64,000 bases of DNA from Actinostola sp. cb2023 (lineage: Eukaryota > Cnidaria > Anthozoa > Actiniaria > Actinostolidae): the NCBI GenBank assembly GCA_033675265.1, contig JAUJYZ010000330.1:240426-304425 (forward strand), given 5' to 3'. Below are positions 3,479 through 63,494 of the stretch, piece by piece (within the stretch, counting starts at the first letter, position 1; each line of letters begins with the position of its first letter). The notes under the pieces were generated by a model. It searched no databases. It worked only from the letters and a program-made list of their open reading frames with translations, and had not been told where the DNA came from. The translations under genes were made by a program, and so were the position numbers.

Positions 3479-3612
3479 ATCGCAGTGGTCCTTTTACTTT
3501 AAGCAGCAGACAATAAGTCGTCGAATTTCCGCCCTGGGTGATTTTGCATGTGAAGTACAGTTTGATTACATGTCCATATGCTATTTGTGGGTAAACGTTT
3601 TTTATCGCTATC
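3479..3612 (-). pseudogene. Copy A exon 3 (frameshifted ectodomain exon)
   Basis: The exon is bounded by a TTTTACTTTTAG acceptor and a GTAAGT donor on the minus strand. It is homologous to exon 3 of B (30792-30924) and C (50829-50949), sharing the G-x-V-I-K-L and C-x(6-10)-C-x-L-L-K features. It is 134 nt where B has 133, because an A6 run (T6 on the plus strand at 3599-3604) replaces A5. In the frame set by exon 2 the extra base causes a stop near the end of the exon. This may be a genuine lesion or a homopolymer sequencing error. Confidence 0.8.
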
Positions 3613-4302
3613 CTAAAAGTAAAAGGAACGAATAGTAAAAAGGTCATCGTTTATAATTTATAAAACAGCATCAAGTTACTCTAGTATGGTAATAATGACC
3701 ATAACAATAACATGATAATAGCCATATTATGCCTTGGCATGATTTTCAGTTCCAACAAAAGTCTCTTCAACTATGTCTGGGATAGGACAACTATTTGACC
3801 GCTTTGGTGAGGGATTGGTACAAATAAGTCAATGACATTTTTGAAGCTGGCGTGACACACACCTACGCGAAAGTTCCCACTGCCTTGCCCCTCCGTTTTA
3901 GTGTTATTTCCTTTGCTTTAAAACTTGATTACGGATCTTCTCTCCTTAGTCTGTGAGCTGGATATAACTGAAAATCGTGGACAATATTGGAAGCAACAAT
4001 CTTATCATGATATTTACGTATCTAGAGGTATAAATACTTAACAATATATATTGCATGAGCGTGCGTGCGTTGGATATGAGCTGATAAATAACCAACAAGG
4101 CGTTAGCCGTTAGTCAGTTTATTAAAAACCTCAACCTCGGTTATTCCTTTCAGAAACTTTGTTTCCGTGTTTTGAACATTTTGTGACTTCATCCGGTTCT
4201 CGATAAGAGTACAGACAATGGAAAACCATGTTTGATTGTTTAAATAGAGGTATAAATGCAATACATTATCACCGTTATAAGTTAATTACTACTGCTACTT
4301 AC

Positions 4303-4520
4303 AGAGATAATCAATTCTTTTAGACTGGAATCATATAGAGAAGAAATGACCGATCTAGCATCACTTATTTGTGTCCAAGTTCCATTGCAATGAAGATATG
4401 AAAACGTTTCCTCAAGAAAGCAGTTTGCAGCGGTTATGTTTACTGTTCCTATAATGCCTTTTACTGCAGGCACAACCAAAAGTGGACTGTCAACAGTATT
4501 GACTTGAAAGGTTGTACATC
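4303..4520 (-). CDS. Copy A exon 2 (Cys-containing ectodomain exon)
   Basis: This 218-nt exon has a TTTCATTTTCAG acceptor and a GTAAGT donor, entry phase 1 and exit phase 0. The translation begins GCTTFQVNTVDSPLL and contains N-x-T sites and the motif YLHCNGTW, with three cysteines in all. It has the same length as exon 2 of B and differs at a few residues, so it is intact. It presumably forms the second extracellular segment of the receptor family described under genes B and C. The domain family is not recognised. Confidence 0.85.
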
Positions 4521-4612
4521 CTGAAAATGAAAGAACAAACACAATATATATAGAGAGAGAGAGGGCAGAGTAAATGACAAGTTTTAATTATATGTTTTAA
4601 ATAAAAAAAATG

Positions 4613-4680
4613 TAGTGTAATGTAATGTAATGTAATGTAATGTAATGTAATGTAATGTAATGTAATGCAATGTAATGTTA
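4613..4680. repeat. (TAATG)n microsatellite in intron 1 of copy A
   Basis: About 12 units of the TAATG pentamer with one substitution. The duplicate locus has a longer, more degenerate array at the same intron position (32077-32200), so the array predates the duplication and has changed length since. Confidence 0.92.
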
Positions 4681-5156
4681 TAAAAAAATCCCTCCGTTTG
4701 TTTGCAGTTATACCTTCATGATCTAAACAAGAACCGTGTCATAGTGATTGGTTCTAAACCTTTAGTATTAAGTCCTTACGTACAACAAAGTCATTATATA
4801 ATGAGAACATGTTTCGTCCTTATGGACCTTTTCAACTCACATATGTTAACATACTGATTGCAATGTTCTTGTTTTTAACAAGAACATTACGGTGAAATAA
4901 ATCCCAGTAATTCATTCAAATTAAATTGGCCAAATTATGCGAACAATCAGTGACAATTCAGTTAGAATAAAGGCTTGATAAACAGTAACTCACATGATAC
5001 ACTGGGAATTGAGAATATACAGTGTACATCACAATTATGTAGATCACATGCTCCAGTTAAAGAATAAAACTGGACCAGAAGCAAGATCTTATAGTTCTAT
5101 AAACATTTAACAGCACCAAGTACGTTACACCTGTGGTTATTCATAAGTTTACTTAC

Positions 5157-5448
5157 CACTATGTGCTCTTACATCTTTATTTCTCTCACATTTCCACGTA
5201 TTGTCGAAGAATCCAAATACGTTTTGAGTGTCGTTGAAGTTACATTGACATGTACAATTGACTGCAGTACCATTAGCGTTTACAGTGATTTCTTTTCCAC
5301 CCATGTCATTACACTGTTTTGCTGTGTCATTTGAACACATCGAAGCAGGAAGCTTAAATACATCTTGATTTTGACGGGTGATGACGTATTCTTCTGCTGA
5401 GTAACGTTTCCACAGAGATATAACGAGTATTACTACAAATATATTCAT
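5157..5448 (-). CDS. Copy A exon 1: signal peptide and six-Cys N-terminal ectodomain
   Basis: This 292-nt exon starts at ATG 5448 and ends at a GTAAGT donor in phase 1. It encodes a signal peptide (MNIFVVILVISLWKRYSA), then EEYVITR, a D-V-F-K-L-P-A-S-M-C segment, a C-x-C-x-C cluster and an FGFFDNTWKCERN motif ending near H-S-G. Six cysteines are conserved in B, C and D, and several N-glycosylation sequons are present. An upstream GTG at 5478 extends the frame, but the ATG gives the better signal peptide. It is nearly identical to exon 1 of B. Downstream exons (stalk, membrane, tail) are not found to the left and must lie outside the window or be missing. The family is unrecognised, and secretion or surface display is inferred. 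Confidence 0.85.
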
Positions 5449-7215: not shown

Positions 7216-7217
7216 TT

Positions 7218-11002: not shown

Positions 11003-12229
11003 TTAACACATTAAGTGCAATTGACGGAGAAAACCGGGCAGTCTCTAAAATGTGGGTTGTCCGATTCACTTTATATTTACACCATTTAATCCTCATCGAT
11101 AAATATTACGAACCGTGAAGTATGACGAAAATCGGGCTTTTCGTTTCAGAGATGACCACCCCCCTCAGGTTTTGGCCTCTGAAGGCCGTAAAATTGACTT
11201 GATTCTGGACCAAAATTGAGAGGCTTAAACATTTACTTCGCGAAATAAATGAACTCTCCAATTGCTTCTACATATTTTTGATGGTCAAAATAAGATATTC
11301 ACGGCGACAGATTTTCATTTGGAAAAATCCGGACTTTTATGCAGGCCGTTAAATATCGTTGATCGTCCAGTAACGAGCAGTATGGCAAATTTTGGTCAAC
11401 TTTAAATGCCCGTTTCTCAAAAGTGCGGCAGTTTATTGAAGACTTACTCCGTTTCGTAGTTGTACACGTGTTTCGTGTTCGATTTAAGCAAACTCATGAT
11501 TGGTATCTTTAATTGCGGAAACGCAGCGTGTGTTTGAAGTTCGACTAAATTGCTTCTTTTCCACTAGCCGATTTCCCGCCAAAATTAGTAGTCTCGCCTC
11601 AAGTGAAGCCGTAAATGTCTCTGAGGCTATCGAGAAATAAGTCAGAAGATATTGTATCTCAGTTCTAGATTATTTTGTACATATAATCAGATTATTGGGT
11701 TCATAGGGCATCACTAATGAGGTGTTGACAACTTTTAGTGGAAGCCGAGACTGTACAATTTTGCCGCGAAATGTGATCGATCGGTCCCGCTTAAGGAGTC
11801 ACGCTAGGGAAAAATGGCAAAAATAATGTTAACAATAACGAAACAATGCAAACATTCACGTTGTAAGTGCTTTATTTAATTAGTATATGGTGAAACTGCG
11901 AGGTTGGTTTTATTTTATATCAACTGTATCACGAAAACTTGACTGGTGTTCTTTGAAATTCGTTTATTCGCGGATAGAATACATATCGAAATCTTCAATG
12001 TAACCTTGTGTTAACCGAGACCTTCTAATGATTTTACCCCCATTAAACACCCACCAAGAATAATACACACAGTATTGCTTTGTTTTGAAAAAGGTATTGA
12101 CAGATAAAATAGGTGACGACAGATAAAAAATCAAACACATCAAAATGTAACGTTAGAATTAGCTGTGTTTTTCAACTTTTAAAACTGTTATATATCTAGA
12201 TAACGTACAATTAAACCTAAGGTGATTGT

Positions 12230-14065: not shown

Positions 14066-15498
14066 CGGGAGTACCCCCCCCCCTCCCGGTATTCCTCTTA
14101 CGACCTGGCCAGTCACTTGTCATTGCTCGAATATCCGGGCGAATATCACTCTCTTCAAGGACTCCATGTCCTTGAGAATCGATTCTTTTTCTGTAACTGT
14201 CGATTGCAATGTGCTGCGCTGCGCGTGCGGCGACTTCGTTTCCAATCCCGGGTTCCAACTTATACCCAGACTAATAGTCATGTCTTCGTCACAGTTTAAC
14301 AATGGAACAATTATAGAATTGCCACCAAACGAACCACATATTGCATTTTCTGAACCAAACGAACAATTCATAGACGCACTCATGATGGGTTCAAAATGAC
14401 TATGAACAGAGGAAGGAATTGGTATTGCGACAGACAGGGCGACAGACAATGCGACACACTAATAATTTATGCAAATTAAGATTGAGAAATCACCGCATGT
14501 TTTCGAAGCCAATTGAATGAAAAGTAATTAATGGTTTCAATCTATTGATGAGAATAATTTGAATGCACTGGCATTTGTATTCTATTCGCGAATAAACGAA
14601 TTTCAAAGAACACCAGTCACATGTCTGCGCTGTTGAAAACAAGGTTGAAGTTTTCGTGATACAGTTGATATTGTTTCGTTATTGTTAACATTATTTTTGC
14701 CATTTTTCCCTAGCGTGACTCCTTAAGCGGGACCGATCACATTTCGCGGCAAAATTGTACAGTCTCGGCTTCCACTAAAAGTTGTCAACACCTCATTAGT
14801 GATGCCCTATGAACCCAATAATCTGATTATATGTACAAAATAATCTAGAACTGAGATACAATATCTTCTGACTTATTTCTCGATAGCCTCAGAGACATTT
14901 ACGGCTTCACTTGAGGCGAGACTACTAATTTTGGCGGGAAATCGGCTAGTGGAAAAGAAGCAATTTAGTCGAACTTCAAACACACGCTGCGTTTCCGCAA
15001 TTAAAGATACCAATCATGAGTTTGCTTAAATCGAACACGAAACACGTGTACAACTACGAAACGGAGTAAGTCTTCAATAAACTGCCGCACTTTTGAGAAA
15101 CGGGCATTTAAAGTTGACCAAAATTTGCCATACTGCTCGTTACTGGACGATCAACGATATTTAATGGCCTGCATAAAAGTCCGGATTTTTCCAAATGAAA
15201 ATCTGTCGCCGTGAATATCTTATTTCGACCATCAAAAATATGTAGAAGCACTTGGAGAGTTCATTTATTTCGCGAAGTAAATGTTTAAGCCTCTCAATTT
15301 TGGTCCAGAATCAAGTCAATTTTACGGCCTTCAGAGGCCAAAAACTGAGGGGGGTGGTCATCTCGGAAACGAAAAGCCCGATTTTCGTCATACTTCACGG
15401 TTCGTAATATTTACCGATGAGGATTAAATGGTGTAAATATAAAGTGAATCGGACAACCTACATTTTAGAGACTGCCCGGTTTTCTCCGTCAATTGCAC

Positions 15499-16072
15499 TT
15501 AACACATTAACATTAACATTAACACATTAACACATTAACACATTAACACATTAACACATTAACATTAACACTAACATTAACACATTAGCACATTAACATT
15601 AACATTAACACATTAACACATTAACACATTAACACATTAACACATTAACACATTAACACATTAACACATTAACACATTAACACATTAACACATTAACACA
15701 TTAACTCATTAACATTAACATTAACATTAACACATTAACACATTAACACATTAACACATTAACATTAACATTAACACATTAACACATTAACACATTAACA
15801 AATTAACATTAACATTAACACATTAACACATTAACATTAACATTAACACATTAACACATTAACATTAACACATTAACACATTAACATTAACATTAACATT
15901 AACACATTAACACATTAACACATTAACACATTAACACATTAACATTAACATTAACACATTAACATTAACACTAACATTAACACATTAGCACATTAACATT
16001 AACATTAACATTAACACATTAACACATTAACACATTAACACATTAACACATTAACACATTAACATTAACATT
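15499..16072. repeat. Satellite array, block 3
   Basis: ACATTA/ACACATTA units with occasional ACTAACA and TTAGCAC variants, resuming directly after the TTAA element. Confidence 0.95.
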
Positions 16073-19959: not shown

Positions 19960-20584
19960 TTAGTCATGTGAGAGTTCATCCATTTTGAGATAGTTCACTG
20001 GATGGTATGCATCGTCAGAAGACTGCTGACCAGCTTGGTTTAGCTGTTTGTAAATAACTTCTTCGGATGACTGAATGACGTCACCAACAGAGTCATAGAG
20101 CATATCATCATATCCACGATTCACATTACCAGCGTCTGTATTAGGTGAATCCAGGGAACCATTCATTCGATGTTCGTTGGAATCCGGTCCTTCGCCCTGG
20201 CGTGGAGTATCTTCAAGGACATTGTACAAAGGTTCACTTTGTGTGGTGGACTTTGGCGGTTTCTTTGTTTTATCTATTTTTGCGTAAATTGAAGCTTCAT
20301 AATTTGGCGGAGAGCCCAAGTTATTTTTATATTATCAGTTATTCCCAGATTATTGGCCACAGAACGTTCTTTGGATTCACGTCCTTCGAGTACATGATAT
20401 ACTGGTGTCTGGTGTGCAGTATATTCAAGGACATTGTACAAAGGTTCACTTTGTGTGGTGGACTTTGGCGGTTTCTTTGTTTTATCTATCTTTGCGTAAA
20501 TTGGAGCTTCAGAATTTGGCGGAGAACCCAAGTTATTTAGATTATCAGTTTGTCCAAGATTATTGGCCACATAACTTTGAACTT
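19960..20584 (-). CDS. Gene B exon 7: cytoplasmic tail with duplicated tyrosine-motif module
   Basis: The acceptor ATTCAAATTTTAG is followed by an exon entered in phase 1. The tail contains two tandem copies of a module: VANNLG..TDN, then NLGSPPN, IYAKIDKTKKPPKSTTQSEP and LYNVLE. The first copy adds PVYHVLEG. A 2-nt insertion at about 20323-20332 (second module, AATATAAAAATAAC against AATCTAAATAAC) shifts the frame. As read, the protein stops at 20274. If the frame is restored it continues to 19960 and gains IYAKI, LYNVL, MLYDSV, VIYKQL and NYLKM, the last a Y-x-x-M type. These are SH2-ligand-like motifs, and a signalling role is inferred. Confidence 0.8.
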
Positions 20585-26460: not shown

Positions 26461-26606
26461 CTTTTTCTCCTTATCCTGATGATAAAAAGTATCATAACAA
26501 CGATTGCTATCAACGCTGCTACGCCACCAACTGTGCCTGCGATCACCGCAGTGTTGTCAGCGGATCTAGCACTGTTCCTGCCATCCTTTAAAAACGGCGT
26601 CGTTAC
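26461..26606 (-). CDS. Gene B exon 5: membrane-spanning exon
   Basis: 146 nt; a pyrimidine-rich acceptor (TATCGGTCTTGTTCAAG), entry phase 0, exit phase 2 at GTGATT. It encodes VTTPFLKDGRNSARSADN followed by a hydrophobic helix containing AGTVGGVAALIAIVVMILFI and the basic stop-transfer RIRRKR. The orientation (mucin-like stalk before, basic residues and tail after) gives a type I single-pass topology. The Gly-rich start of the helix (GTVGG) recurs in C as GTVG. The start of the exon was chosen for the VTTP/TTPTTP match with C; an acceptor 21 nt further in (26585) is possible. Confidence 0.8.
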
Positions 26607-27812: not shown

Positions 27813-28135
27813 ATGCGGTAACTTGGTGCTTTGAGTAGCTATAGAGGTGCTGCGTTTTGTTGGTAACGACGAAGAAGGCGTCGAGGTTGGTGGAATTTGC
27901 GTTGAAGAAGATGAAGAACTAATTATCGATGTACATATTGTCGTTGTTGGGGTATGAGATGAAGAATATGAAAAAGGAGGCGTGGAAGTAGACGTTGTCG
28001 TGGACGTTGGTGGAATTTGCGTTAAAGAGGATGGAGAACTAATTATCGATGTAGATATTGTCGTTGTTGGGGTATGTGTTGAAGAATATGAAAAAGTAAG
28101 CGTGGAAGTAGACGTTGGTGGCATCAAGAGTGGAC
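27813..28135 (-). CDS. Gene B exon 4: Ser/Thr/Pro-rich mucin-like stalk
   Basis: 323 nt, entry phase 1 (forming a Cys codon TGT with the last base of exon 3) and exit phase 0 at GTAAGT. Almost all residues are Ser, Thr, Pro or Ile. Two imperfect repeats of about 38-40 residues share FSYSS.HTPTTTI.TSIISS and S.TQIPPTST. Such a composition is typical of an O-glycosylated extended stalk between ectodomain and membrane. Gene C has a counterpart of 344 nt with the same phases but no close sequence match, as expected for a fast-evolving stalk. Confidence 0.8.
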
Positions 28136-30791: not shown

Positions 30792-30924
30792 ATCGCAGTG
30801 GTCCTTGTACTTTAAGCAGCAGACAATAAGTCGTCCAACTTCCGCCCTGGGTGATTGTGCATGTGAAGTTCAGTTTGATTACATGTCCATATGCTATTTG
30901 TGGGTAAACGTTTTTACCACTATC
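30792..30924 (-). CDS. Gene B exon 3: ectodomain exon
   Basis: 133 nt, acceptor TTTTACTTTTAG, donor GTAAGT, entry phase 0 and exit phase 1. It encodes DSGKNVYPQIAYGHVIKLNF followed by a T-C segment, an N-glycan-free loop, Y-C-L-L-L-K-V and PLR. It aligns with C exon 3 through G-x-V-I-K-L, two cysteines and L-L-K-(V/I)-(Q/E)-G. The last base begins the Cys codon completed by exon 4. The homologous exon of copy A carries one extra A and is out of frame. Confidence 0.85.
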
Positions 30925-31761: not shown

Positions 31762-31979
31762 AGAGATAATCAATTCTTTTAGACTGGAATCATATAGAGA
31801 AGAAAAGACCGATCTAGCATCACTTATTTGTGTCCAAGTTCCATTGCAATGAAGATATGAAAACGTTTCCTCAAGAACGCAGTTATCAGCGTTTATGTTT
31901 ATTGTTCCTATAATGCCTTCTACTGCAGGCACAACCAAAAGTGGACTGTCAACAGTATTGACTTGAAAGGTTGTACATC
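31762..31979 (-). CDS. Gene B exon 2: ectodomain exon
   Basis: 218 nt, acceptor TTTCATTTTCAG, donor GTAAGT, entry phase 1 and exit phase 0. It starts GCTTFQVNTVDSPLLVVPAV, then a cysteine in DNCVLEE and YLHCNGTW, and ends KELIIS. Same length as the copy A exon. It has three cysteines and at least one N-glycosylation sequon, and no known domain is recognised. Confidence 0.87.
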
Positions 31980-35130: not shown

Positions 35131-36748
35131 TGTATTTAGTATTTGCTTAGTATATCGTCGAGATGTAGAACATATATTTGTTTTAAAACATTTACTACTA
35201 TGAGCAGTTATTGTAATTGAACATTCTTCACATAGTTGGATTACATAGTCAATCAGCTACAATTCGATTCAAAACTGTTGAGACAGTTGTGCTTCAAAGG
35301 TGCTTTATATATGACTATGCTCCCATTAAAAACAATGAAAAATTATGTTCATATCAGATATCTCCCCTCCCCTCAGTACAATGTTGATTAGACTTTCACG
35401 CAAAATCCAAAGCACGTGACTATGAATCAACATTGACACAGGGGGGAGGGGGCCTGGAGAGATCGATTTTCATATAACATAAATACTAAGAAATATTCAG
35501 AAATGTCTCAACAAGAAATGCAACGAATTGTAGCTTGAAGTTACCATTGGATCTTAGATACAGTATGTGGTCTTAATTGTGAACAGTTCTAATTATATTG
35601 TGATCACTTTTCAGACAAGTGCCGTTTTTATACCGTAAAGTTAAGATCGACAAAACATATTTTACCGGAGCAAATATTGATTTATTTTCAATCATTCAAT
35701 GCTATTTTGGGCTTCCTGACATTTATTCCGCGCAAAATTTCAACTTTAATTCAAAGTAAGCTGACGTTGTTGTTTACAAATTCGAATTTTAAGCGCGCCT
35801 TTAAGATTCTCAGTGGCAAAGTTCGATATTTTCTTTCTAAAAACGCAAAGTTTGGAGTTTGTTTTTATATGAGCTAAAAGATAAATAATAACACTTTTCT
35901 TTACAAAACAATAATTAGAAAATTGTTGAAAATGAACGAACAACATCGGAATGAAAAATAGTGCGTGTTTTTTCTGACCTTTCACGCTATCAGAATAACT
36001 GCAAAACTTAAAAAAAACGGTAAGAAGGACATTATAGGGTTTGCTTTCTTATGTTTGACAATCTATTTTGCTTGCACTTGTCATTTGCAAGACAGAGAAC
36101 GTTTTTTACAAAACTACCGAAATGCAAATTAGCATTAAATTCAAAATAGCATTCAATAATGTCGCAAAATGGCTCGTTTTGTAGGTAAAATCGATCTAAT
36201 TCTTGACTTTATGATTCACAACGTGCAAAGAATAATGGTTAGTGTAAAATTGTTCAAATGGAGCGCCAAGTTTTGCAGCTTAGGCTGTTATTCTGGTGAT
36301 AGCGTGAAAGGTCAGAAGGTCGCTCATTTCGTCAAGTGTGTTGTATCCGGGACGCTCTAAAATGCGGATTTTAATTTACCCCAAAAACATTTTCGGCCAA
36401 ATCCTAGTTGAAGGAATATTTTTTCCGAAAAATATAGTCTTGATTACCAAAGTGATGTACCAGTGTGGGTTTTTAGCCTCGGAATCTCACCAAATTTTGC
36501 CGTGAGACATTATGTACGCGTGGCATAAATTTGAAAAATCTGTCAAAAATTAGTTTCGAGTTATAGTTAATTCTAACAGCGGTATCCCGCAGAGAAAAGA
36601 TGTTGCTGTTGTCCTATATTGTTAATTGTTTTTGCAGATGAGCTAAAATTTCTCTGTGCGCGCTACAGAAAATTCGCGATTTTGGTGTCTATTTTGACCG
36701 CTCCTGAGCGATAAATGGAAAAAATCGTGCCAAAAATTAAATTATTAA
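35131..36748. other. Intergenic DNA left of the 6.7-kb transposon
   Basis: Imperfect inverted phrases (TCTGACCTTTCACGCTATCA near 35976 against GATAGCGTGAAAGGTCAGAA near 36299) suggest an old ~340-bp element. Otherwise nothing is supported. Confidence 0.45.
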
Positions 36749-37005
36749 GAGTGACTTCCTGTAAGAATCGACCAAAATTTAATAATTCTGGCACAAGTCG
36801 AAAAATCAATTTTGCTCATATTTGGTGTATCGATAGGTTATAGTAAGAAAGTAAACGGTGCGAAGTTAGTTTTGAAAAAAATTAAATCGTTTCGAAGAAA
36901 ACAAGGATTTTCATTATAGCCCTATTTACCGCTAAATCAGCTTCTAATTATGCATATTTTTACCCTAAATATTATCGACTCGCTTTACAAAAGCGTTACA
37001 CAAAT

Positions 37006-37278
37006 TTATTTTGAAACATTTTCTCTGTAATATTTAGACATTTCTCTTCCTTCTTGATGAAAAAAGAATTCAAATTGAATGATAACGAAGGCGGGGGGAA
37101 ATTCTAAACAAAGGCTATACTTTTCGCATTTGCGAAAATCAATTTGTATGGTAAACACACGGTAAAGGTTCGGCATGTGCAACTTCTCGAAATAACGTAA
37201 ACTTTCACCCGAAGCCTTATTAGACATTTGCCTTTCGAAATATAAAGAGAAATCTCTGGGCAAATTACTTTCACGCAC
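37006..37278 (-). repeat. Left TIR segment with 90-codon open frame identical to the right arm
   Basis: The translated frame here is identical, residue for residue, to the frame at 42937-43209 on the plus strand. This shows very high identity of the two TIR arms. I do not claim it is a protein: it is a chance open frame in repeat DNA unless expression shows otherwise. Confidence 0.8.
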
Positions 37279-37869
37279 CCAACGAGGCCCGTTTTTATCC
37301 CATAATTACTCTAATATTTTCGCTCGGTAACGCAAGTATCAGAGTCAACTCGTGACATAAATTTGTCAATAATATATATGGAAATAAATAAAGGGGGAAA
37401 TTGGTCATTTGCTAAATTAACTTTTGTACTTTCAGTTCTATCGGAAGGACGAATATTGCAAAAAAAAAATGTTATTAATATTGATCAACTTTTGTGTTGC
37501 GTGACATGCCCGACAGCGTATGGTATTTTCATATATATTCCGCTGAAAGAAAGTTTATGCTAAAATGTATAGAAATGTACGTATATAGTCTGACAGAAAG
37601 TATAGTTCACCAAACTATCAAACTGTAAATAGACTATATCACCAACAAAACACAAATGTACACAAGAATGTGCCTGGGTACATCATGCGCTACTTGTCGA
37701 TTGAAAGGCGGGAAAATACACCGCATGATTGTAGTTATTGCGAAAAATACAGTACGTTGAAACACCTAAGAAATTATTAGCTTTTAACATTTAGATACTC
37801 ACACTTCTTGCTTAGTGACTCTAATTGTCTGTTAATTTATCGCTCCCTTTACAATCTTCTAACCTACAG

Positions 37870-39894
37870 TCAGCAGGCTTTGGTGAGATGACAGGTGCAT
37901 GACCCCACTAGACGATGAAGTTTCTCTGTGTAGGGCTTCTTGCGCTTCGCTGTAACATCAGTTACATCTATGTCAAAATAAAGACAGATCTCTCGCAAAG
38001 CAGTGACACTGAATGTGACGCTTAGTTTATCAGTGGCCACAAGTTCACAAATATTGTGTGTGTCATAAATGATTGGGTGACTGAGATCTACTTCCTTCGC
38101 CACAAGTGACTTCATGTCTTCTATTGCCTTCTCTTCTTTAGCACTGTTCCCCACATCCTCTGATTCTTCTTTTTCTTCCTCTTCAATGTTTTCAAACGTG
38201 CCGCTTGACGCCAATCTTGAAAAATAGCTTACTATTTGTTGACTTGTCAAAAACTCATCGACTGCAAACAGTCGATCACCTAACACATCTTTAGTACTGC
38301 GCATGTCCTTAGCAACTATGGATGGGTCTAGCTTACGCCCTGTCGTTTTACCGATAAGGAATTTCTTGCGGAGATAATCTCTCTGCGTTGTTGTGAACTT
38401 GACTCTTTTAGTGCTCGATGTTTTTAGTGACCATCCCATTGGGGCAGGAAGTTTATTAGAGCTGGGATGCACATCCAACCCTTGCTGATACGAACTATTC
38501 GTCGCTGCTTGCATTCTTGCGCCTCCCACTTCAAGCCTATTGGCATAGCTACACATTGCTTTGTCTAAGAGTGTTTCTCTCTCCAATTCCCTTCGATGTC
38601 GTCCGCATTCAAGATGATGTTGTAAACTTGAATATCTCTGATATGACTTCACACATCCATCCTCTGGACAACAAAATAGCTTGCTTGTCGCGTTTTTGGA
38701 ACTGATTGGATAACCAGCTACAACCTCATGATCATCCTCCTCTGAGTCATCGCTTTGGACCTCATCACTCTCATCGGTACTGTTTTGATGATCAGGTGAC
38801 ACTTTATTGGAGGACTTTCTAGATTTTGGCAATGCAAACTGGACCTGTGAACTGCTGTTCTCAATGATGGTGATGCTTGGTAGTTGGCTAGAATTAGCGA
38901 ACTTGCTCCAGGGAAGAAGTTTCCCTGGACCGACATTATAAGCCCTCCATATGCGAAGTCCTTCCTCACAATATTCAATATTGGAAACCAAGCTAACACC
39001 TTCCCATTTGAGGGTACGTTTGGTGGATGGTGTGTTGTTTGGTGTGCCACAAAGTGTTACACTGACACTTGGAAGTCCCCCTGACGATTCTATTGCCTCT
39101 TTCATTTGAGCCGCGGTCTCGATATCTTTACCAGAGTTGAGATACAAGCGCATGTGTGATTTTATGGCTGCCGCTTTTCTGTCACATGCCCCTTTCCCAC
39201 CTTGGGGTTCTGAAAAATCCATTCGCATAATTTTGATTCCAGCAGCTTCTGCAATATTTCTGGCAGTAGTAATTGTTAACGCCGAATGATAACAACCTGC
39301 ATTATCTTGTCTATAAAACACAGATTTAAGGTCTGGCATGATGTCTTTTAGTTGCCTCAACACATCTTTCATGATGCACAAAACTGTTATGCTGTCCTGA
39401 GTGCATGTTTGAAACACATGAACAAACGTCGCCATTTCTATCTCATCGGCTTGGCCTCGTCTGAAAGCAACAGTGATATGCCAGGGTAGTCCTCGTTTAG
39501 CAAACCAGTCCCTCTGGCTTTCACGATACTTTCTGGGTAAATACTTCATTGCCCAGTCTTGTACTAGCAAAACGGAGTTCTTGTCTAGATCTTCAAGTAT
39601 ATCCAGCCTTGCATCGTCCTGGTTGAGCGAGCGAAGGAGGTGAGCCTTCCATGCATCGATGTTTTGCTTGGCATGTTTGATGTTGAACAAAAGTTCGTCG
39701 GTCTCTTCAGGTGTCCCTGTTACACTGTCAAGGGCTTTGTCAATCTTATTCAGTGTTAAGGCTAAATGATCACAGCGATCACAGAGGCCATCATGGGCGT
39801 GGTCACAAACCCCATGGAAGTCTGTGTCTTTGGGGTCGCTCAATGCATGTGTTCGGCAATGATCAGGAACGGTTGACGAACAGGAAATATGAAC
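37870..39894 (-). CDS. Transposon gene, last exon: DDE-like catalytic region and C2H2 finger
   Basis: Acceptor TATTATTTTCAG at 39895, stop ending at 37870, about 674 codons. It opens VHISCSSTVPDHC, then a Cys/His cluster (VCDHAHDGLCDRCDHL). Candidate acidic residues lie in LLVQDWAMKYLP, VFYRQDNAGCYHS and DFSEPQGGKGACDRK, roughly 115, 200 and 230-240 residues into the exon; this is the spacing of a DDE/D nuclease. A C2H2 finger (CPEDGC ... HHLECGRH) follows at about 410-432, after an acidic Ser-rich linker. The region resembles a large transposon-derived family I associate with cnidarian genomes. It presumably catalyses element excision and insertion. The exon is intact as read. Confidence 0.8.
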   Translation of the reverse strand, partial: VHISCSSTVPDHCRTHALSDPKDTDFHGVCDHAHDGLCDRCDHLALTLNKIDKALDSVTGTPEETDELLFNIKHAKQNIDAWKAHLLRSLNQDDARLDILEDLDKNSVLLVQDWAMKYLPRKYRESQRDWFAKRGLPWHITVAFRRGQADEIEMATFVHVFQTCTQDSITVLCIMKDVLRQLKDIMPDLKSVFYRQDNAGCYHSALTITTARNIAEAAGIKIMRMDFSEPQGGKGACDRKAAAIKSHMRLYLNSGKDIETAAQMKEAIESSGGLPSVSVTLCGTPNNTPSTKRTLKWEGVSLVSNIEYCEEGLRIWRAYNVGPGKLLPWSKFANSSQLPSITIIENSSSQVQFALPKSRKSSNKVSPDHQNSTDESDEVQSDDSEEDDHEVVAGYPISSKNATSKLFCCPEDGCVKSYQRYSSLQHHLECGRHRRELERETLLDKAMCSYANRLEVGGARMQAATNSSYQQGLDVHPSSNKLPAPMGWSLKTSSTKRVKFTTTQRDYLRKKFLIGKTTGRKLDPSIVAKDMRSTKDVLGDRLFAVDEFLTSQQIVSYFSRLASSGTFENIEEEEKEESEDVGNSAKEEKAIEDMKSLVAKEVDLSHPIIYDTHNICELVATDKLSVTFSVTALREICLYFDIDVTDVTAKRKKPYTEKLHRLVGSCTCHLTKAC

Positions 39895-40464
39895 CTGAAA
39901 ATAATACATCAAATATATATAAGTACTTATATCGATGATTGTACCTTTTTCGGGAAGCAAAAAATAAGCAAAAAATAAGCAAAAAATAAATAAACTACGA
40001 ACGCACGGGTGAAAAAATAGAAATAAAATAAATAAAATGATGCATTACGTATACAAGCATCAAGAGTTCCAGACTTCCGGTATTATTACAAAGGAAACGT
40101 GAGCACCAATTCTAGACACAGGGAGCCCAAGCAATGATTTTTCTCACTTGGTGCTCACTTTTCCTTTGTAATATTCTCACAATGCATTGCGCGCGCACCG
40201 GAAGTCTGGAACTCTTGATGTGTGTATATATATTACGATATCAAGACAAAAGGTTTCAAACGGAGTTGGCATCAATATTAGTTACATGACGACTAATTCT
40301 GACATGCTCTGATATTAAAATGTCGTATACAGCTGTATATGCTTCAATAAACGTTGTCAGCAAATCCCCCATGGAATGTTACATCCCCAGTCTCATTCTT
40401 GTCAGGTGTGCATGTGGGCCGCTGCGGGATTTTCAATCACTCTGAGATTGCTATTTATTCTCAC
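39895..40464 (-). other. Intron of the transposon gene
   Basis: GTGAGAATA donor and TATTATTTTCAG acceptor, phase 0. Joining the exons gives ...KGDFK|VHISC..., which fits the family pattern I recall of a lysine-rich helix followed by the Cys/His cluster. It carries a nested MITE at 40051-40228. Confidence 0.75.
40051..40228. mobile_element. MITE inside the transposon's intron
   Basis: ATACAAGCATCAAGAGTTCC and GGAACTCTTGATGTGTGTAT are inverted ends. Arms continue through CAGACTTCCGG and TTACAAAGGAAA.GTGAGCACCA. The centre contains ACACAGGGAGCCCAAG, the phrase seen at the ends of other elements here. Confidence 0.85.
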
Positions 40465-41523
40465 CTTAAAATCTCCCTTCAGATAGCGCTTGGCCAATTT
40501 TAGTTGATGTTTCGTCTGTTTGGCCCATGACATATCCTGACGCAGATCTCCTAGCCTATCAACGACATCTTCAAGATCATCAAAGCCTTTTGATCCAGAC
40601 TCTGTGATGTAATCAAGGCCCTGAAGTGATGTTCTAACAGATGCAGAGCAAACTTGTAAGATTCGTAAAAGCGAACTCCGACTGAGTGGGCTGAAATGTG
40701 TTTCATTACAGAACTGCAAGTACTGCTTTACGATGCGTTCTGGGACAATCATTCGGATAACATTTGGCACTGTAATTATCTCTTTTGAAGAGAGGGTTAG
40801 CTTTTTCTCGCCAAACGGTAAATCACTGATAACGTGTTGGCTTGTTATGAAGCAAATGAAGTGTTCTACTTTCTCTTGAGGAACACGCATTCTTGTATGA
40901 CTCGATGATGGCACAGGAACGCCTTTGCCATGCAGCAATGAATGTCGCTTTGCGATTTTATAGCGATATCGAGTAAGATCCGGGATGAGCCTTTTTAGGG
41001 TGCTGTAATCGATTTTCTCGACCATAATTGATAATATCTGACGGCGAGTTTCCCACTGGTCAGCTTCATTGTAGCATTCAGCAAGGCTTTCAAGTAGAGC
41101 GTCATCTTTATGAATATATGCGTCATGAGATGACGACACAGATAACTGCTTATTGATTGTTTGTGATCCTACAAGGGACTGCCACAGCAAATCAGGGTCA
41201 TTAGGGACAATAACCTTCAACGATTCTGCAACTGCCTGGCTAGCTTTCTTTATGTAATATCGTTTAGATCGATCTCCAGCTTCATTCCAAGGGGTTGCAA
41301 GACATGATCTGACGGGGCTTATATCTCTTGATACCAAGAACTTATTTAGCTGAAATTTTGAACTTACATCTCTCAACGTTCGTGAGGCGGAGTCATCCTG
41401 AGTGTCTGAAGGTAAAAATGAGCTTGTCATATCCATAGGTACATGTATATCAGCTGTTTGCATCAGAAGTGGTTTGGTGGCTGGAGTACTTGTTGTCAAG
41501 CATATATCATCATCGTCATCCTT
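40465..41523 (-). CDS. Transposon gene, penultimate exon
   Basis: Open from an apparent acceptor (ATGTATTAAG) at about 41524 to the GTGAGA donor at 40464. The frame begins with an acidic run (DDDDDIC) and has no ATG near the start, consistent with an internal exon. It encodes mostly helical sequence with a basic patch (TRYRYKIAKRHSLLHGKG) and CNETHFSPLSRSSLLRILQV, a phrase characteristic of the same cnidarian transposon family as I recall it. A DNA-binding or multimerisation role is plausible but inferred. Confidence 0.7.
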
Positions 41524-41648
41524 AATACATTAAGAAATTGTGGACTATATTAGACTGTCTGTTTCCCCTCTTCACAAAAAAGTTAAACCACAACAACAAC
41601 TGAATAAATTCATGTTGCAGTTACAGGAAAACATATGGGGAGGAATTA

Positions 41649-41812
41649 GTCAAACCTCCATTAAGCGGCCGCACCTCTATTAAGCGGCCATCCTTGGTGA
41701 ATAGCCATGATCGTTTTAAAAATAATCGTTGGCGCCCAATGAAAGGAAACACAAATGGACCTTGGGTGTGGTCAAATTCAACATGTGCGAAAAGTAAGGT
41801 TTGACTGTACTG
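41649..41812. repeat. Degenerate MITE (AGTCAAACCTCCATTAAG / AAGGTTTGACTGTACT)
   Basis: AGTCAAACCT at the left and AGGTTTGACT at the right are inverted ends. CATTAAGCGGCC and CTATTAAGCGGCC are internal repeats. It lies within a presumed intron of the transposon gene. Confidence 0.65.
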
Positions 41813-41879
41813 ATAAGAAAACTACACAAATTATTATTAGTAATAAAACTCACTAAATTTAAATCACTCATGTCGTCCA

Positions 41880-41964
41880 CGAGTAACATTCTTTCTGGTG
41901 TACAGGTAGCCTCTATCTGTGCTACTGTGGGACTTCAATACTTCTCTACAAGATCTACATACAC
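41880..41964 (-). CDS. Transposon gene, small upstream exon (CRSCR motif)
   Basis: After acceptor TTGTTCTGCAG the frame reads VCRSCREVLKSHSSTDRGY and then basic residues. Entry phase 1 matches the donor at 42054 of the upstream exon (joining to G-L-G|V-C-R-S-C). The exact 3' border is uncertain. Confidence 0.55.
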
Positions 41965-42054
41965 CTGCAGAACAATAAGTGTAATTTCATTATTATTTGT
42001 TCTTTCTTTGTTGTAGAGTAATTTCAAAAGGTAGTGAATACATTTGTTGTTTAC

Positions 42055-42465
42055 CTAAGCCTACCGGGACAAAAACGCCTGTCTGATCCATTATTGTCTG
42101 AGATAATAATTTTGAAATTCCTCTATCAGCTTTCGGAAACTTTCCCTTATGATGACGCGATAACTCAGTAGGTACACAACATGTCTTCTTGCTTCTGATC
42201 CAACCAATGCCAAGGTTTGAGCGATGAGATGGACAGATGGTTAGAGAGACGCAATGGTGGAAGGACATATTTCAAATATTCGAGCACGTGCTAGAATTAG
42301 TTCTATTTCATTTTCCACATCTTGAAAGCCAAACAGCGATTTATGTCCAGAGATATCCTTTACGCAGGAAGTTAAAGGTGTTATATCTACTAAATACTTT
42401 ATATTTCTTCTGTCGAATGTACAAGGACCACCAACAAGGGTTCTAAAGGAGCAACACACTTCCAT
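42055..42465 (-). pseudogene. Transposon gene, N-terminal exon with a 1-nt frameshift
   Basis: ATG at 42465 opens MEVCCSFRTLVGGPCTFDRR and continues to ARARIFEICPSTIASL then a stop. A one-base shift at about 42243-42250 (TCTCTCTAACC) restores CPSHRSNLGIGWIRSKKTCC and KADRGISKLL up to the donor GTAAAC at 42054. The reading-frame break makes the element probably inactive as read, unless it is a sequencing error. Cys-rich N-terminus, possibly zinc-binding. Confidence 0.6.
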
Positions 42466-42837
42466 CTTCACAATAACACACTAAGTATACGTTATTGTTC
42501 CCACTCAGCGGCTTGTTGTGCACAATGTATATGCAAATTTTTAAGTTTTTTTCTCAAGACGTCTAATATCGTTTCACAATGTGGAAAATAATATGAAAAA
42601 GGAACAATCAGCCATTTTGTCATCTTTTTAAGATACATACATGCATCTTTCCAAATTCTAGTGAAGAGAAAAGTTTCCATCCGCTGTCGGGCATGTCACG
42701 CAACACAAAAGCTGTTCAGAAATAACATTGATTTTTTGGATTATTTTCGAAATATCCGTCCTTCCGATAGTACTAAAAGTAAATATAGCAAATGAACAAT
42801 TTCACATAATTCAGCTGAGATCTGTTCATATTTTCCG

Positions 42838-43457
42838 ATATATTATTGACAAATTTATGTCACGAGTTGACTCTGATACTTGCGTTACCGAGCGAAAATA
42901 TTAGAGTAATTATGGGATAAAAACGGGCCTCGTTGGGTGCGTGAAAGTAATTTGCCCAGAGATTTCTCTTTATATTTCGAAAGGCAAATGTCTAATAAGG
43001 CTTCGGGTGAAAGTTTACGTTATTTCGAGAAGTTGCACATGCCGAACCTTTACCGTGTGTTTACCATACAAATTGATTTTCGCAAATGCGAAAAGTATAG
43101 CCTTTGTTTAGAATTTCCCCCCGCCTTCGTTATCATTCAATTTGAATTCTTTTTTCATCAAGAAGGAAGAGAAATGTCTAAATATTACAGAGAAAATGTT
43201 TCAAAATAAATTTGTGTAACGCTTTTGTAAAGCGAGTCGATAATATTTAGGGTAAAAATATGCATAATTAGAAGCTGATTTAGCGGTAAATAGGGCTATA
43301 ATGAAAATCCTTGTTTTCTTCGAAACGATTTAATTTTTTTCAAAACTAACTTCGCACCGTTTACTTTCTTACTATAACCTATCGATACACCAAATATGAG
43401 CAAAATTGATTTTTCGACTTGTGCCACGATTTGGTCGATTCTTACAGGAAGTCACTC
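42838..43457 (+). repeat. Right TIR of the 6.7-kb transposon
   Basis: Inverse of 36749-37377. The arms differ near the outer end by a short indel (left GACCAAAATTTAATAATTCT versus right GATTTGGTC). Confidence 0.92.
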
Positions 43458-43461
43458 TTAA

Positions 43462-48247: not shown

Positions 48248-48575
48248 ATGAGTCGAATTATATTTTCGCTTCTTGTATTAACATGGAATTCAGCGTTTAC
48301 ACAGGAATACAACATTACTCGACTAAGTGATGGAATATATACACGTCGACCAGACATCGTTGAAATCCCTCAATCGTTGTGTAGCGATACTAAAGGAGAT
48401 GTAGAATGCCCTCGTCTTGACGGAAGGAAGATTGGCGACTGTAAGTGTGCATGTAGTAATAGAGAAGAATTCACAAGTGGTGACATCAAAGTATTTATTT
48501 ACAATGCCAGTACGTTTGGTTTTTATAACGGGATGTGGAAATGTGAGAAAAACACTGCAGTTCGCCAACATGCAG
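48248..48575 (+). CDS. Gene C exon 1: signal peptide and six-Cys N-terminal ectodomain
   Basis: ATG at 48248 gives the signal peptide MSRIIFSLLVLTWNSAFT. An in-frame ATG at 48209 would add 13 residues. Then QEYNITRL, DIVEIPQSLC, the cluster DCKCAC, and FGFYNGMWKCEKN..VRQHAG at the GTAGGA donor (exit phase 1). The six cysteines align with A and B. The exon is 36 nt longer than theirs, mainly in the loop after the Cys cluster. Gene C is the mirror-oriented paralogue of B. Its eight exons share B's phase pattern but three of them contain indels as read. Confidence 0.87.
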
Positions 48576-49639: not shown

Positions 49640-49892
49640 GATGTTCACTGTCCGTCGGTTTGGACCAAGAGCAGTATAGACCCATTGCCACTTTACCATC
49701 AAGTACCACGGTCGAAACTGAAATTACAAACCTACCAATGGCGATACGATGGACGATACCACCTGTACGGTAGATGCAGGCAGCTCCATGTATATGAAAT
49801 GCAATGGAGACTGGAAACCATTGAATAGCACTGTAGTGTCAAAAAGGTTTAATACCAGAATAGACAATGAAGTTGGTATATTGTATCTAAAG
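49640..49892 (+). pseudogene. Gene C exon 2: ectodomain exon with frameshift
   Basis: Acceptor CATATCCTAG, entry phase 1, donor GTAAGT. It starts GCSLSVGLDQEQYRPIATLP as expected from A and B. The frame meets a TAG at about 49781-49783. The homologous second half (TCTVDAGSSMYMKCNGDWKP, matching NC...YLHCNGTW) is in another frame. The length, 253 nt, is one base short of (or two over) a phase-0 exit, consistent with a single indel around 49725-49745. Either a lesion or an assembly error. Confidence 0.75.
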
Positions 49893-50828: not shown

Positions 50829-50949
50829 GTGGATGGTAGTGGAAGGCTTGCTTACCCTCTACCAAGTGGCCGTGTCATTAAACTCGGGCTGATCTGTAGA
50901 AATGCACAGCGACACTGTATTCTACTGAAAATAGAAGGAAGCATTCAAT
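50829..50949 (+). CDS. Gene C exon 3: ectodomain exon
   Basis: 121 nt, acceptor TCTGTATTTGTAG, donor GTAAGT, entry phase 0 and exit phase 1. It encodes VDGSGRLAYPLPSGRVIKLG, a two-Cys segment (LICRNAQRHC) and ILLKIEGSIQ. It aligns with B exon 3 through Y-P-x-x-x-x-G-x-V-I-K-L and L-L-K-(V/I)-x-G. It is intact. Confidence 0.85.
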
Positions 50950-51935: not shown

Positions 51936-52279
51936 GTGCAGTATCAACATTGCCATCTAGCTCGTCATCATCAACTCAAGCCTCTACCACGCAGTCCATT
52001 ATAGAGACATCAACATATGCTGCTCAGCGGACCTCATCTTTAACGTCTCTGTCAATCATCCCCACTCGTTCTTCATCAGCATCGACCGAGGTCTCGTCTC
52101 ATCCTGTATCATTGTCATCAGCGACGACTACTTCTTTGCAAACTTCTCCAAAGACTATTTCACCTTCGTCTACATCTGCCGTTGTTGCACTCTCTCCTAC
52201 CAGTACTTCAAATGTACAAACAAGTTCCTATCAAGTGAATTCAACAGTACAGACATCGCCTCATAGGCCAACAAAAACG
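51936..52279 (+). CDS. Gene C exon 4: Ser/Thr-rich mucin-like stalk
   Basis: 344 nt, acceptor TATGCAATTCTAG, entry phase 1 (the joined codon is TGT, Cys, as in B), exit phase 0 at GTAATA. The translation begins AVSTLPSSSSSSTQASTTQS and is dominated by Ser and Thr throughout. Frequent TS, SS and TST runs predict heavy O-glycosylation. It differs in sequence from the B stalk but has the same position, phases and composition. Confidence 0.82.
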
Positions 52280-55074: not shown

Positions 55075-55236
55075 ACGACACCAACTACTCCACCAAAGGT
55101 GCGCAAAGCTTCAGGCAAAGGACAAAGCAAAAACAACATGGGTACAGTTGGATTAATTCTCGCGGGAGTAACTGTGTTTGCAAATAATAATAATTGTCTT
55201 GATCGTTATTATAACCAAGCGACGAATAAATGTCAG
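55075..55236 (+). pseudogene. Gene C exon 5: membrane-spanning exon with 1-nt frameshift
   Basis: Acceptor CTCCTTTCACAG, entry phase 0. It encodes TTPTTPPKVRKASGKGQSKN then MGTVGLILAGVTVFA, the first half of a membrane helix. The second half (IIIIVLIVIITKRRINV, a hydrophobic run with KRR stop-transfer) is one base out of frame after an AAA at about 55180. With that base removed, the exon exits in phase 2 at GTAAAA, as in B. As read, the helix breaks into an Asn-rich sequence. Lesion or homopolymer error. Confidence 0.75.
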
Positions 55237-55263
55237 GTAAAAACATATTTATTTATTCCATAA

Positions 55264-55702
55264 TGTTTGTCTGTTTGTCTGTTTGTCTGTTTGTCTGTTT
55301 GTCTGTTTGTCTGTTTGTCTGTTTGTCTGTTTGTCTGTTTGTCTGTTTGTCTGTTTGTCTGTTTGTCTGTTTGTCTGTTTGTCTGTTTGTCTGTTTGTCT
55401 GTTTGTCTGTTTGTCTGTTTGTCTGTTTGTCTGTTTGTCTGTTTGTCTGTTTGTCTGTTTGTCTGTTTGTCTGTTTGTCTGTTTGTCTGTTTGTCTGTTT
55501 GTCTGTTTGTCTGTTTGTCTGTTTGTCTGTTTGTCTGTTTGTCTGTTTGTCTGTTTGTCTGTTTGTCTGTTTGTCTGTTTGTCTGTTTGTCTGTTTGTCT
55601 GTTTGTCTGTTTGTCTGTTTGTCTGTTTGTCTGTTTGTCTGTTTGTCTGTTTGTCTGTTTGTCTTTGTCTGTTTGTCTGTTTGTCTGTTTGTCTGTTTGT
55701 CG
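55264..55702. repeat. (GTCTGTTT)n octamer array, ~55 units
   Basis: Almost perfect octamer repeat with one 4-bp slip near 55662, starting 27 bp after the donor of gene C exon 5. Frames of up to ~200 codons across it (FVCLSVCL or TDKQTNRQ) are artefacts. Confidence 0.98.
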
Positions 55703-55761
55703 CATTGATTGTCTGTTTGTTATCAACATTTTAAAAATATTTTGATTGTATTTCTCATCAG

Positions 55762-56700: not shown

Positions 56701-56845
56701 GTATATGTAAATAATTTTCTTCATTTATATGACTCACGTCAGGTGAAACGGGCAAATTGTTTTTCTGGAGAGGAACTGAGAACCTTGTCTTTTATTTGCT
56801 CATTCATTCTTTTGAATCTAATTTGAAGAACCTTTGATCCCACAG

Positions 56846-56998
56846 TTGTGGAAAATGACAGTTATGAGCAAGGTATAGACAATTCATTTGAATTCAAAGA
56901 TGGCGATCAACAATCAGTGCACGAATACTATACTACATCACCGACACGACAGGCGCCTGGGAGCCAGAAGAAAGACATCAAGCATCCCTTTAAAGGAG
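56846..56998 (+). CDS. Gene C exon 7: proximal cytoplasmic tail
   Basis: 153 nt, acceptor TTGATCCCACAG, entry phase 1 and exit phase 1 at GTAGTA. It encodes VENDSYEQGIDNSFEFKDGD then HEYYTTSPTRQAPGSQKK. It is hydrophilic and contains tyrosines. B has no separate counterpart. Confidence 0.72.
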
Positions 56999-57330: not shown

Positions 57331-57813
57331 GAAACCGTAACAGCATATCCAATCAATTTTACGGGAGCGTCGAAGTGCTAGACAAGCCACAATCTGACCC
57401 ATCCACAGCTAAACACTTCAATAATGTTCCTGAAGAGTCCATATTCGAGACAATTAAAAGCACTAAAGGGCGAAACGAGCCCAGTGGGCCTAGGGACATT
57501 ATTCGAAACTCTCTGGAAGCCCCCAGTTCGCACGAAGAGCCAAATATATAACGAACCAGAGATTATGATCTGTGAGACTCCTAACGGAACCATATCGCAT
57601 GATGAATCTCGTAGTGAGAACACGTATGACGTACTTGAAAGACCACAACCATCCAGGGAATCTTTGTATGGGGTTCTTATTAGACAAGACGCACCTCACA
57701 TATATGGTACCTTGAAGCAACCTAATTCAGATGATCCCATCTATGATTATTTGGAAGACGGCATAGATGGGACGTTAAATGATGATGACGAAATTTACCA
57801 ATACGTCGCTTGA
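57331..57813 (+). CDS. Gene C exon 8: distal tail with ITAM-like tyrosine motifs (one frameshift)
   Basis: Acceptor ATCTTTTACCCTCAG, entry phase 1 (GGA-AAC-CGT). In the first frame it reads NRNSISNQFYGSVEVLDKPQ then SIFETIKSTKG and stops at 57551. The downstream frame, shifted by one base somewhere around 57450-57510, reads QIYNEP, NTYDVLERPQPSRESLYGVL, IRQDAPHIYGTLKQP, IYDYLED and ends IYQYVA at 57813. YGVLIRQDAPHIYGTL is YxxL-x8-YxxL, an ITAM-type pair, and SLYGVL fits the ITIM pattern. The tyrosine motifs parallel those of B exon 7. The break may be a lesion or an indel error. Confidence 0.75.
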
Positions 57814-60599: not shown

Positions 60600-60600
<1 letters not shown>

Positions 60601-60664
<64 letters not shown>

Positions 60665-60690
60665 TATTATTATTATTATTATTATTATTT
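60601..60690. repeat. (ATT)n microsatellite
   Basis: Trinucleotide array with one slip. Confidence 0.96.
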
Positions 60691-60736
60691 ATTCCAAACC
60701 GTTAGAAAATACACTTAGATTTTCAGTATTTTTAAT

Positions 60737-61232: not shown

Positions 61233-61265
61233 CGAAACCAGTTTCCGCGAGAGAGTTCATCTTAT

Positions 61266-61456
61266 TATCTCGAAAACACTAGATAGCAATGACCTAAACC
61301 AGATCAAGATTTGAATAACAATAGGAACTATTGTACAACAATAGGAACTATTGTTAGATATGCATCGTTCTACAAAGGACATGTCTATGTAGAACGAGGC
61401 ATCTATTGTTATCCAAATCTTGACCTGGTTTAGGTCCTTTCTATCTAGTGTTTTCC
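61266..61456. repeat. Hairpin element (CGAAAACACTAGATAG ends)
   Basis: GAAAACACTAGATAGCAATG and the inverse of TTTCTATCTAGTGTTTTC, then CTAAACCAGATCAAGATTTG with its inverse. ACAATAGGAACTATTGTACA is itself palindromic at the left of the loop. Confidence 0.85.
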
Positions 61457-61469
61457 CATTATCGCACAC

Positions 61470-62112
61470 ACACTACCACAGGAAGCCCGTCAAAAGGCTC
61501 GCGCATGATGCATTTCTTTTTACTCTGGATGTTTAACAGTAGTGATAAAGAACTACGATAACAATAGCTTCCGTATAATAGTTAGACTTTCGGTGGTCAT
61601 GAGACACGCGCTGAGCATGCGCATTTATATCATCATATCCCCGATGATGAATCTAAGACCCAAAATCTCTGAATATATACTTATATAAGTATATTTCCAT
61701 CAAACTTAGAAGAAACGTATTGTTTATAATTGTATTACTAGCTAAATCTAAACTTTTAATATTTGACAGTTATTCTAAAGTGGTCTTGGTTGATTTGATT
61801 GACTTGGTTGAGTTCATTTTTTATGCAAATTCGTCATTATTATTTCACATGTGGAGCAATCGAAGCTGTTTTTGAAGAAGACTTAAAACATCGAGAAGAA
61901 ACTAGCCTGTTATGTTCAATATGTCTAATTGACAAACGAAATATACTAGGAAATAATTAACCTAATTGTTGGATACGATTGTTTTAGTTTCACTTTACAT
62001 AAACAACTTGACTGATCTTGAGTGATATCGATTCTTCGTTTATACACGTACTTAATTCAAGCTAGTTCTACACTGTCTGCTGTATTTTTTGTCCAAACCA
62101 ACAAGAAATACC
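61470..62112. other. Region upstream of copy D
   Basis: A fragment resembling the long-TIR family (ACCACAGGAAGCCCGTCAAA) at 61473-61500. No gene is seen. A promoter for D could lie here, but I see no motif I would defend. Confidence 0.35.
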
Positions 62113-62390
62113 ATGAGGTTAGTCACATTATTACTCAGTGTATCCCTGTGGAAACGCTACTCAACAAAACAGTATTTGATCACACGTAAAGACAAAGATG
62201 TATTCAAGCTATCGACGTCCTCGATGTGCCTCAGCAATGTCAATCGAATGCAGCAGCATGGGTGGAAGTCTCGTACAAGAACGCAGATGGATGTCCGTGT
62301 CATTGTGGCATAAACTCTCAGACCACGTTTGGATTTCTCTAAACAATACGTGGAAGTGTGAGAAAAATGCCGAAGTTCGAAAGCACGCAG
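62113..62390 (+). pseudogene. Copy D exon 1 remnant, several frameshifts
   Basis: ATG 62113 opens MRLVTLLLSVSLWKRYSTKQ and YLITRKDKDVFKLSTSSMC, clearly the family's exon 1. The rest is spread over other frames: ECSSMGG, then NADGCPCHCG and TTFGF, then NNTWKCEKNAEVRKHAG before a GTATAC donor (phase 1). At least three indels separate these parts. The six cysteine positions can still be traced, so decay is fairly recent. Confidence 0.82.
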
Positions 62391-62399
62391 GTATACGTA

Positions 62400-63300
62400 A
62401 CATCTATGCAAGCATACTCCATTTATTATTACTTTATTATGTTTATTATTAATAGTTTCATTTCAAGATGACAGTGATATCATGTGATATCTTGTGATAT
62501 TCCAACCGAAGGGTTTTACGTGGTCGAAATGATTGCACAGTATAAGTTCCTTAATATGCTTAATATCTATTAGCATGTTGCACTACACGCATCAATATAC
62601 AGCACCGACGAAAATATTAAACTAATGACGTGATAGACTTTGCCGGTCGGTTTTTGAAACGATGGAACTATACAAGCGACAACCAACTAGTGAAGGGGAA
62701 CTAGTAGTTTTCGGCCCGAAACTTAATAAACACTGACGATATTAGACTTAATTTGTTTGTCTGAAACTTTCGATGTTAACCTGTTTATGTAATCATTATA
62801 TACACATATAAGCAAATATACAGCTGTTGGAAAGGTTACCAGAGAGAAAGGTGATAGGGTGATAGAACTAAAAGTGGTCATTTTTATGACCAGAGTTGAC
62901 TGTGGAATTAGTTGAAAAAAATGGTTCACTTTTAGTTTCGTTCTGGTAATTCATTATATAATTACAACTGAAATCTTTATATAGGAACTATATTGTCAAG
63001 TTATTTGCATATACATAGTCACAAACATACTAGTTCCATACTGGTCTTAGAATGATCATTGTATTCTCCTACCACCACCTTTCTTTCCGACAACCTTAAA
63101 CTTTTAAATAAATTTATGGCCGAATTAGGCCGGTGTATAAGAACAATTGAATCCAACTGCAATATAGATGATCATTGATGATATATTGAAATAAACAGCT
63201 CACAATCAGCTCTAATGTTATTCAGAATGCTCAATTATTTGTGGATGAGACGACGGAAACAAGCAGCAAACATTTTCACCTTTACTGACGATACCAACGT
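62400..63300. other. Presumed intron 1 of copy D
   Basis: AT-rich, a GTGATATC microrepeat at 62475-62500, nothing else identifiable. Confidence 0.35.
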
Positions 63301-63494
63301 CTACTTCAAGTGGTTCATTGTGGCCGTATTATTCGGGGTGTTAAATATACCGAATACAACATCCATATCAACATGTTATCTCTCAGATGCTTCGTATCTA
63401 CTACATTGTGATGGAAACTTGGATACAGAATGACTGCGTGAAAGAGACAGTTTTTAATATTTTTAAACCCAGTGTGTGAAATCGATACTTGAAT
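63300..63494 (+). pseudogene. Copy D exon 2 remnant
   Basis: STCYLSDASYLLHCDGN matches the NC(F/V)LEETFSYLHCNGTW segment of exon 2 in A and B. An extra T then shifts the frame (WIQNDCVKETVF continues in another frame), and a TGA follows before a GTGAGT at 63495. The left border is not clear. Later exons would lie beyond the window. Confidence 0.6.

Follow-up and report, generated by a model that had tools for sequence, protein, structure and literature searches.

The window analysed here is the last 64 kb (64,000 nucleotides) of contig C1025 in the genome assembly of the sea anemone Actinostola sp. cb2023. It carries four copies, A to D, of a lineage-expanded gene family which, judged from its sequences, probably encodes type I receptors with a Shavenoid-type, cysteine-rich head and tails resembling immunoreceptor tyrosine-based activation motifs (ITAMs), the window copies being broken in places as assembled. 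Coordinates of A to D are window positions, whereas paralogues, found in searches covering the 424-Mb assembly, are named by contig and position (e.g. C987:432k). The assembly is rich in Cys-loop receptor domains (154 exon-level matches); GFP had no match and innexin a single one, below threshold and with stops, in searches that had no control signal. Copies A and B lie on the minus strand, and C and D on the plus strand. A preliminary description had all four sharing a first exon with a signal peptide. This is so for A, B and C, in which a hydrophobic N-terminus is followed by a C-x-C-x-C cluster and an FGF-x4-W-K-C-E motif; exon 1 of D (62113-62390) is broken by three frame changes, and is followed by an exon 2 remnant with approximate ends at 63338-63428.

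Copy B comprises five GT-AG exons, with a frame that remains open from the ATG of exon 1 (32680-32971) through exon 2 (31762-31979), exon 3 (30792-30924) and a Ser/Thr stalk exon (27813-28135) to the helix of the membrane exon (26461-26606), whose counterpart in A is 85% identical over 40 amino acids. Its tail exon, with YxxL/I/V motifs, lies at 19960-20584 and changes frame near 20325-20331. In copy A, exon 1 (5157-5448; 89% identical to that of B) encodes the signal peptide and a head like the Pfam domain Sha_B_N in an open frame with a GT donor. Exon 2 of A (4303-4520) is bounded by AG and GT and has no insertion or deletion (indel) relative to B. Exon 3 (3479-3612) is one base longer than in B and is therefore out of frame as assembled. 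A is not a short copy: the frames for its stalk, membrane and tail are found outside the window, some 4 to 9 kb to the left of exon 3.

Copy C has exons of the B type in matching order, and changes frame three times. These are exon 1 (48248-48575), exon 2 (49640-49892, frame change within about 49710-49760), exon 3 (50829-50949), the Ser/Thr stalk exon (51936-52279), the membrane exon (55075-55236, frame change near 55180), a first cytoplasmic exon (56829-56998) and a tail exon with ITAM-spaced tyrosines (57331-57813, frame change near 57541). The stalks of both B and C open with a split Cys codon, and the membrane exon of C as assembled ends in a phase other than the phase 2 of its relatives. 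The intron behind this exon holds a long simple-repeat array (55250-55730) that is open in several frames. The exon series first described for B and C is present in all its parts (exons 2 and 3, stalk, membrane and tail), yet C is frame-shifted and the tail of B is unjoined.

The family is larger than the four members initially counted. With exon 1 of B as query, the genome search returned 11 places on five contigs at an expectation value (E) of 10 or less, and only four of these are A to D. When exon 1 of A, B and C is aligned with that of seven loci from beyond the window (D left out), Cys, Phe, Gly, Trp and Arg positions are invariant, a likeness greater than chance would give. Downstream of exon 1, the relatives have an exon 2 with the pattern C...Y..C[DN]G.W and usually an exon 3 with G..I.....C...K..G, and several on other contigs also have membrane exons and tyrosine-rich tails. 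Ectodomains of four other genes are 26-29% identical to that of B, and Cys, Trp, Arg and Gly positions are again invariant. Relatives in ENA, with 54 to 98% identity to their nearest copy, may be alleles, paralogues or sequences of other species. The tail of A also has tail-only matches at C1488:28.6k (L045 1227-1818, a 197-amino-acid open frame) and C820:341k (L046), with 58% and 56% identity respectively. Heads were not found at these two places, and the matches imply further putative family genes there.

Gene structure is consistent across this family. Among eight genes compared for splice phase (B, C, C903, three on C987, C687 and C1025:142k), the phases 1-0-1 are common and agree wherever a site was scored. 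The exon 1 donor is in phase 1 in seven of the eight (C687 being missed). Exon 2 has a matching acceptor in all eight, and a phase 0 donor in seven, with C987:403k placed by hand. The acceptor of exon 3 is in phase 0 in all six anchored genes and its donor in phase 1 in five of six, again with C987:403k placed by hand. Membrane-exon donors are in phase 2 in C987:403k, C987:432k and C687; B agrees, and C903 was not scored. One paralogue, C987:403887-398152, is unbroken, with 325 predicted residues that run from a signal peptide through exons 1-3 and a membrane helix into a tail. A single helix between head and tail within one open gene is found here and is not shown for the window copies; the in-frame join of membrane and tail is not settled for C987:432k. 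Since the membrane-to-tail join of B was not found, head and tail exons might be thought to belong to separate neighbouring genes. This is highly improbable, given that the same one-strand order of head, membrane and tail recurs at C987, C903, C687, C923 and C1025, and that in one gene all of them are read in a single frame. This predicted architecture lends good support to a cell-surface receptor. An intron of the C903 gene contains a retroelement (L034 6676-9999) that has a long open frame, and related DNA occurs in the C1025:142k locus (L040 2331-8768).

The head was at first reported as unrecognised, but has relatives through the Pfam family PF23328, Sha_B_N (Shavenoid isoform B N-terminal domain). 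Scores for A (17.0 bits) and B (16.4 bits) fall below the cut-off of 24.4, exon 1 of C gave no listed match and D was not scored. C987:432k scores 25.0 bits, above the cut-off, and as a query it finds members of the window family, C987:409k among them. In the genome, five of ten places among the matches listed pass the cut-off, C987:432k included. A Sha_B_N match at E≤1 was obtained for 13 of 19 exon-1 sequences (16 from this genome and three from ENA contigs), seven of the 19 having been found through the Sha_B_N search itself. Two of the loci that pass the cut-off, C923 and C781, likewise carry membrane frames and frames resembling exon 3; no exon 2 was identified at either. Behind the Sha_B_N gene of C923 lies a 582-residue tail frame (L041 6253-7998), in which NYETM units are repeated and Yxx[LIVM] occurs 15 times. 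Exon 1 and PF23328 have the pattern R..D.F...C...C...C-x-C...C in common, and an AlphaFold2 model of exon 1 is fair (predicted local distance difference test, pLDDT, 82.6; predicted template modelling score, pTM, 0.69). Most likely, to judge from these profile matches, the head is a diverged Shavenoid-type domain.

The gene sha has been called specific to insects and arthropods (PMC9375228; the published work cited here is drawn on in excerpt), whereas in this anemone Sha_B_N heads receptor-like genes of a multigene family, with A and B below the cut-off and C unlisted. Likeness to Drosophila Shavenoid covers the head domain; the membrane and tail layout lies outside the comparison. Since Shavenoid acts on actin in fly hairs (PMC9375228) and the heads are related, the proteins could serve adhesion or the cytoskeleton, acting in cell shape and not in recognition. 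We regard this as quite improbable in view of the multigene turnover, the conversion-like tracts described below and the ITAM spacing of the tails.

Tail motifs were evaluated in seven tails (A, B, C, C903, C687, C987:403k and C987:432k) against 2000 shuffles. The ITAM-type arrangement Yxx[LI]x6-8Yxx[LI] occurs four times, in four of the seven tails, where 0.13 are expected, and pairs of Yxx[LI] at x9-12 spacing occur seven times where 0.15 are expected; no shuffle reached either count. Three x6-8 pairs have an acidic residue at -3 (expected 0.02). Motifs like the immunoreceptor tyrosine-based inhibitory motif (ITIM) are less striking, with 7 against an expected 2.9, a count reached by 44 shuffles. 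The full pattern [DE]xxYxx[LI]x6-8Yxx[LI] is present in A (outside the window), in C (after frame changes) and in C987:432k, and was not found in B, C903 (which lacks the D/E), C687 or C987:403k. The tails of A and C are related (E 1.5e-5), as is, weakly, that of C903 (E 0.007), and the C1488:28.6k tail, found by similarity to A, has ITAM-like spacing of the A type. ITAM-type signalling is likely from this spacing, and Syk is implied for those animals that have Bcl10, which include cnidarians (PMC5978004, excerpt). Tails of this kind would also suit Draper-type phagocytic or scavenger receptors, whose ligands might be debris or symbionts, for example, since Draper signals via Src and Syk-family kinases (a reference listed in PMC5978004). 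This appears unlikely, as Pfam listed no EGF or other scavenger domain at E≤1 in five ectodomains. A type I receptor with a tyrosine-motif tail, as originally proposed, holds at the level of the family, through exon order, splice phases, one unbroken gene and the ITAM-like spacing; it is not shown for the window copies, all four of which change frame as assembled.

Copies A and B have diverged mainly in codons that alter the protein. Exons 1 and 2 differ at 24 bases, 19 of them in codons that change an amino acid, with non-synonymous (dN) and synonymous (dS) rates of 0.048 and 0.052 and a dN/dS of about 0.9. The 510 exon bases are free of indels, whereas the two introns, the second of which aligns poorly, show 15 gaps; exon 1 is more diverged (5.8%) than intron 1 (3.3%). 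This pattern fits an open frame in which amino-acid change may have been free or favoured, or a recent relaxation. Near-identical tracts confined to exons occur between paralogues, namely 200 bases of exon 1 at 97.5% between C903 and C1488:136k, and 129 bases of exon 2 at 89% between two C987 genes, with flanks that align poorly in both cases. Such tracts suggest gene conversion as their probable source.

The window copies may be largely decayed. It is quite possible, though we hold it to be less than an even prospect, that A to D are pseudogenes of the family, with the working genes on other contigs. Frame changes occur in all four copies, the linking exon of B is missing, and the head exons are unbroken in the paralogues C987, C903 and C1025:142k. 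Indel errors do not pervade the whole sequence either, since old repeats in the vicinity can be aligned gap-free (452 bases at 93.8% in one case). Yet B is unbroken across its five exons, the first two exons of A and B are free of indels where their introns have 15 gaps, and C and D are no more than 16 kb from the end of the contig, where the assembly may be poorer.

Several observations weigh against the receptor reading set out at the beginning. As assembled, the frame changes number one in A, one in B, three in C and three in D. No convincing candidate was found for an exon linking the membrane and tail exons of B in frame; with this and the frame changes, no window copy is shown to be intact. 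Nor are frame changes confined to the window, since exon 2 of C1488:64k (L036) has four bases more than the near-identical copy C1488:136k (L037). A dN/dS near 1 fits relaxed constraint too. Structure comparison gave no recognised fold for the exon 1 model, and strict ITAM spacing is absent in the unbroken C987:403k gene and in the tail of B. Finally, the majority of the tails were initially selected for their number of Yxx[LIV] sites, so that motif counts are biased; spacing played no part in the selection.

With receptors of this kind, the nearest analogies lie in invertebrate recognition systems. Hydractinia Alr proteins are clustered, single-pass membrane proteins, with ITAM and ITIM motifs in candidates (PMC11067881 and PMC12065747, in excerpt). 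They resemble the window family in clustering, single-pass layout and ITAM-like tails, but their head is of another kind: no immunoglobulin (Ig) family, of the V-set or I-set type characteristic of Alr, was listed at E≤1 in the five ectodomains by sequence profiles alone. The Botryllus fester family and fuhc receptors are likewise clustered and tied to ITIM and hemITAM (half-ITAM) signalling. Their heads are Ig or sushi domains (PMC12065747), whereas no such match was listed here, sushi families being equally unlisted at that threshold in the five ectodomains by the same profiles. The oyster CgIgIT2 is also an invertebrate single-pass receptor with an ITAM, but has five Ig domains (PMC11999971, excerpt). 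According to the excerpt of PMC12065747, the Hydractinia and Botryllus allorecognition receptors are unrelated, yet converge on ITAM and ITIM signalling.

From clustering, turnover and the analogy with Alr and fester, we infer that the family may have a role in recognition or immunity. The head would bind a ligand carried by another cell or by a microbe, and clustering of receptors would expose their tails to a Src-type kinase. Paired phosphotyrosines could then recruit a Src homology 2 (SH2) protein, for example Syk, and the cell would respond by rejection, phagocytosis or defence. The repertoire would be kept in flux by duplication, gene conversion and decay. The step with least support is that the ligand has to do with self/non-self or microbes. 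We tentatively suggest, as a rather doubtful extension, that the family forms a cnidarian complex for recognising self/non-self or microbes, in which a Shavenoid-type head in place of Ig or sushi domains, ITAM tails and exon-sized gene conversion represent an independent origin of ITAM-based recognition in animals.

Among the literature matches listed (titles and the starts of abstracts), none names a family of receptors headed by a Shavenoid-type domain. What would be new is a multigene family that combines this head and ITAM-like tails. If the proposed reading is true, it offers concrete loci at which SH2 binding, expression and allelic diversity can be examined, and places a domain that has been described as specific to arthropods (PMC9375228) at the head of receptor-like genes in a non-arthropod animal.

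Other features of the window are repeats. Between B and C lies an element resembling a DNA transposon (36745-43461), with inverted ends (36745-37523 and 42677-43461) that are 91.8% identical, and minus-strand frames at 37870-40044 and 40402-41529, for which DUF7337 scores below its cut-off. A further inverted repeat pair, at 11011-11847 and 14670-15502, is 98.7% identical over 837 columns.
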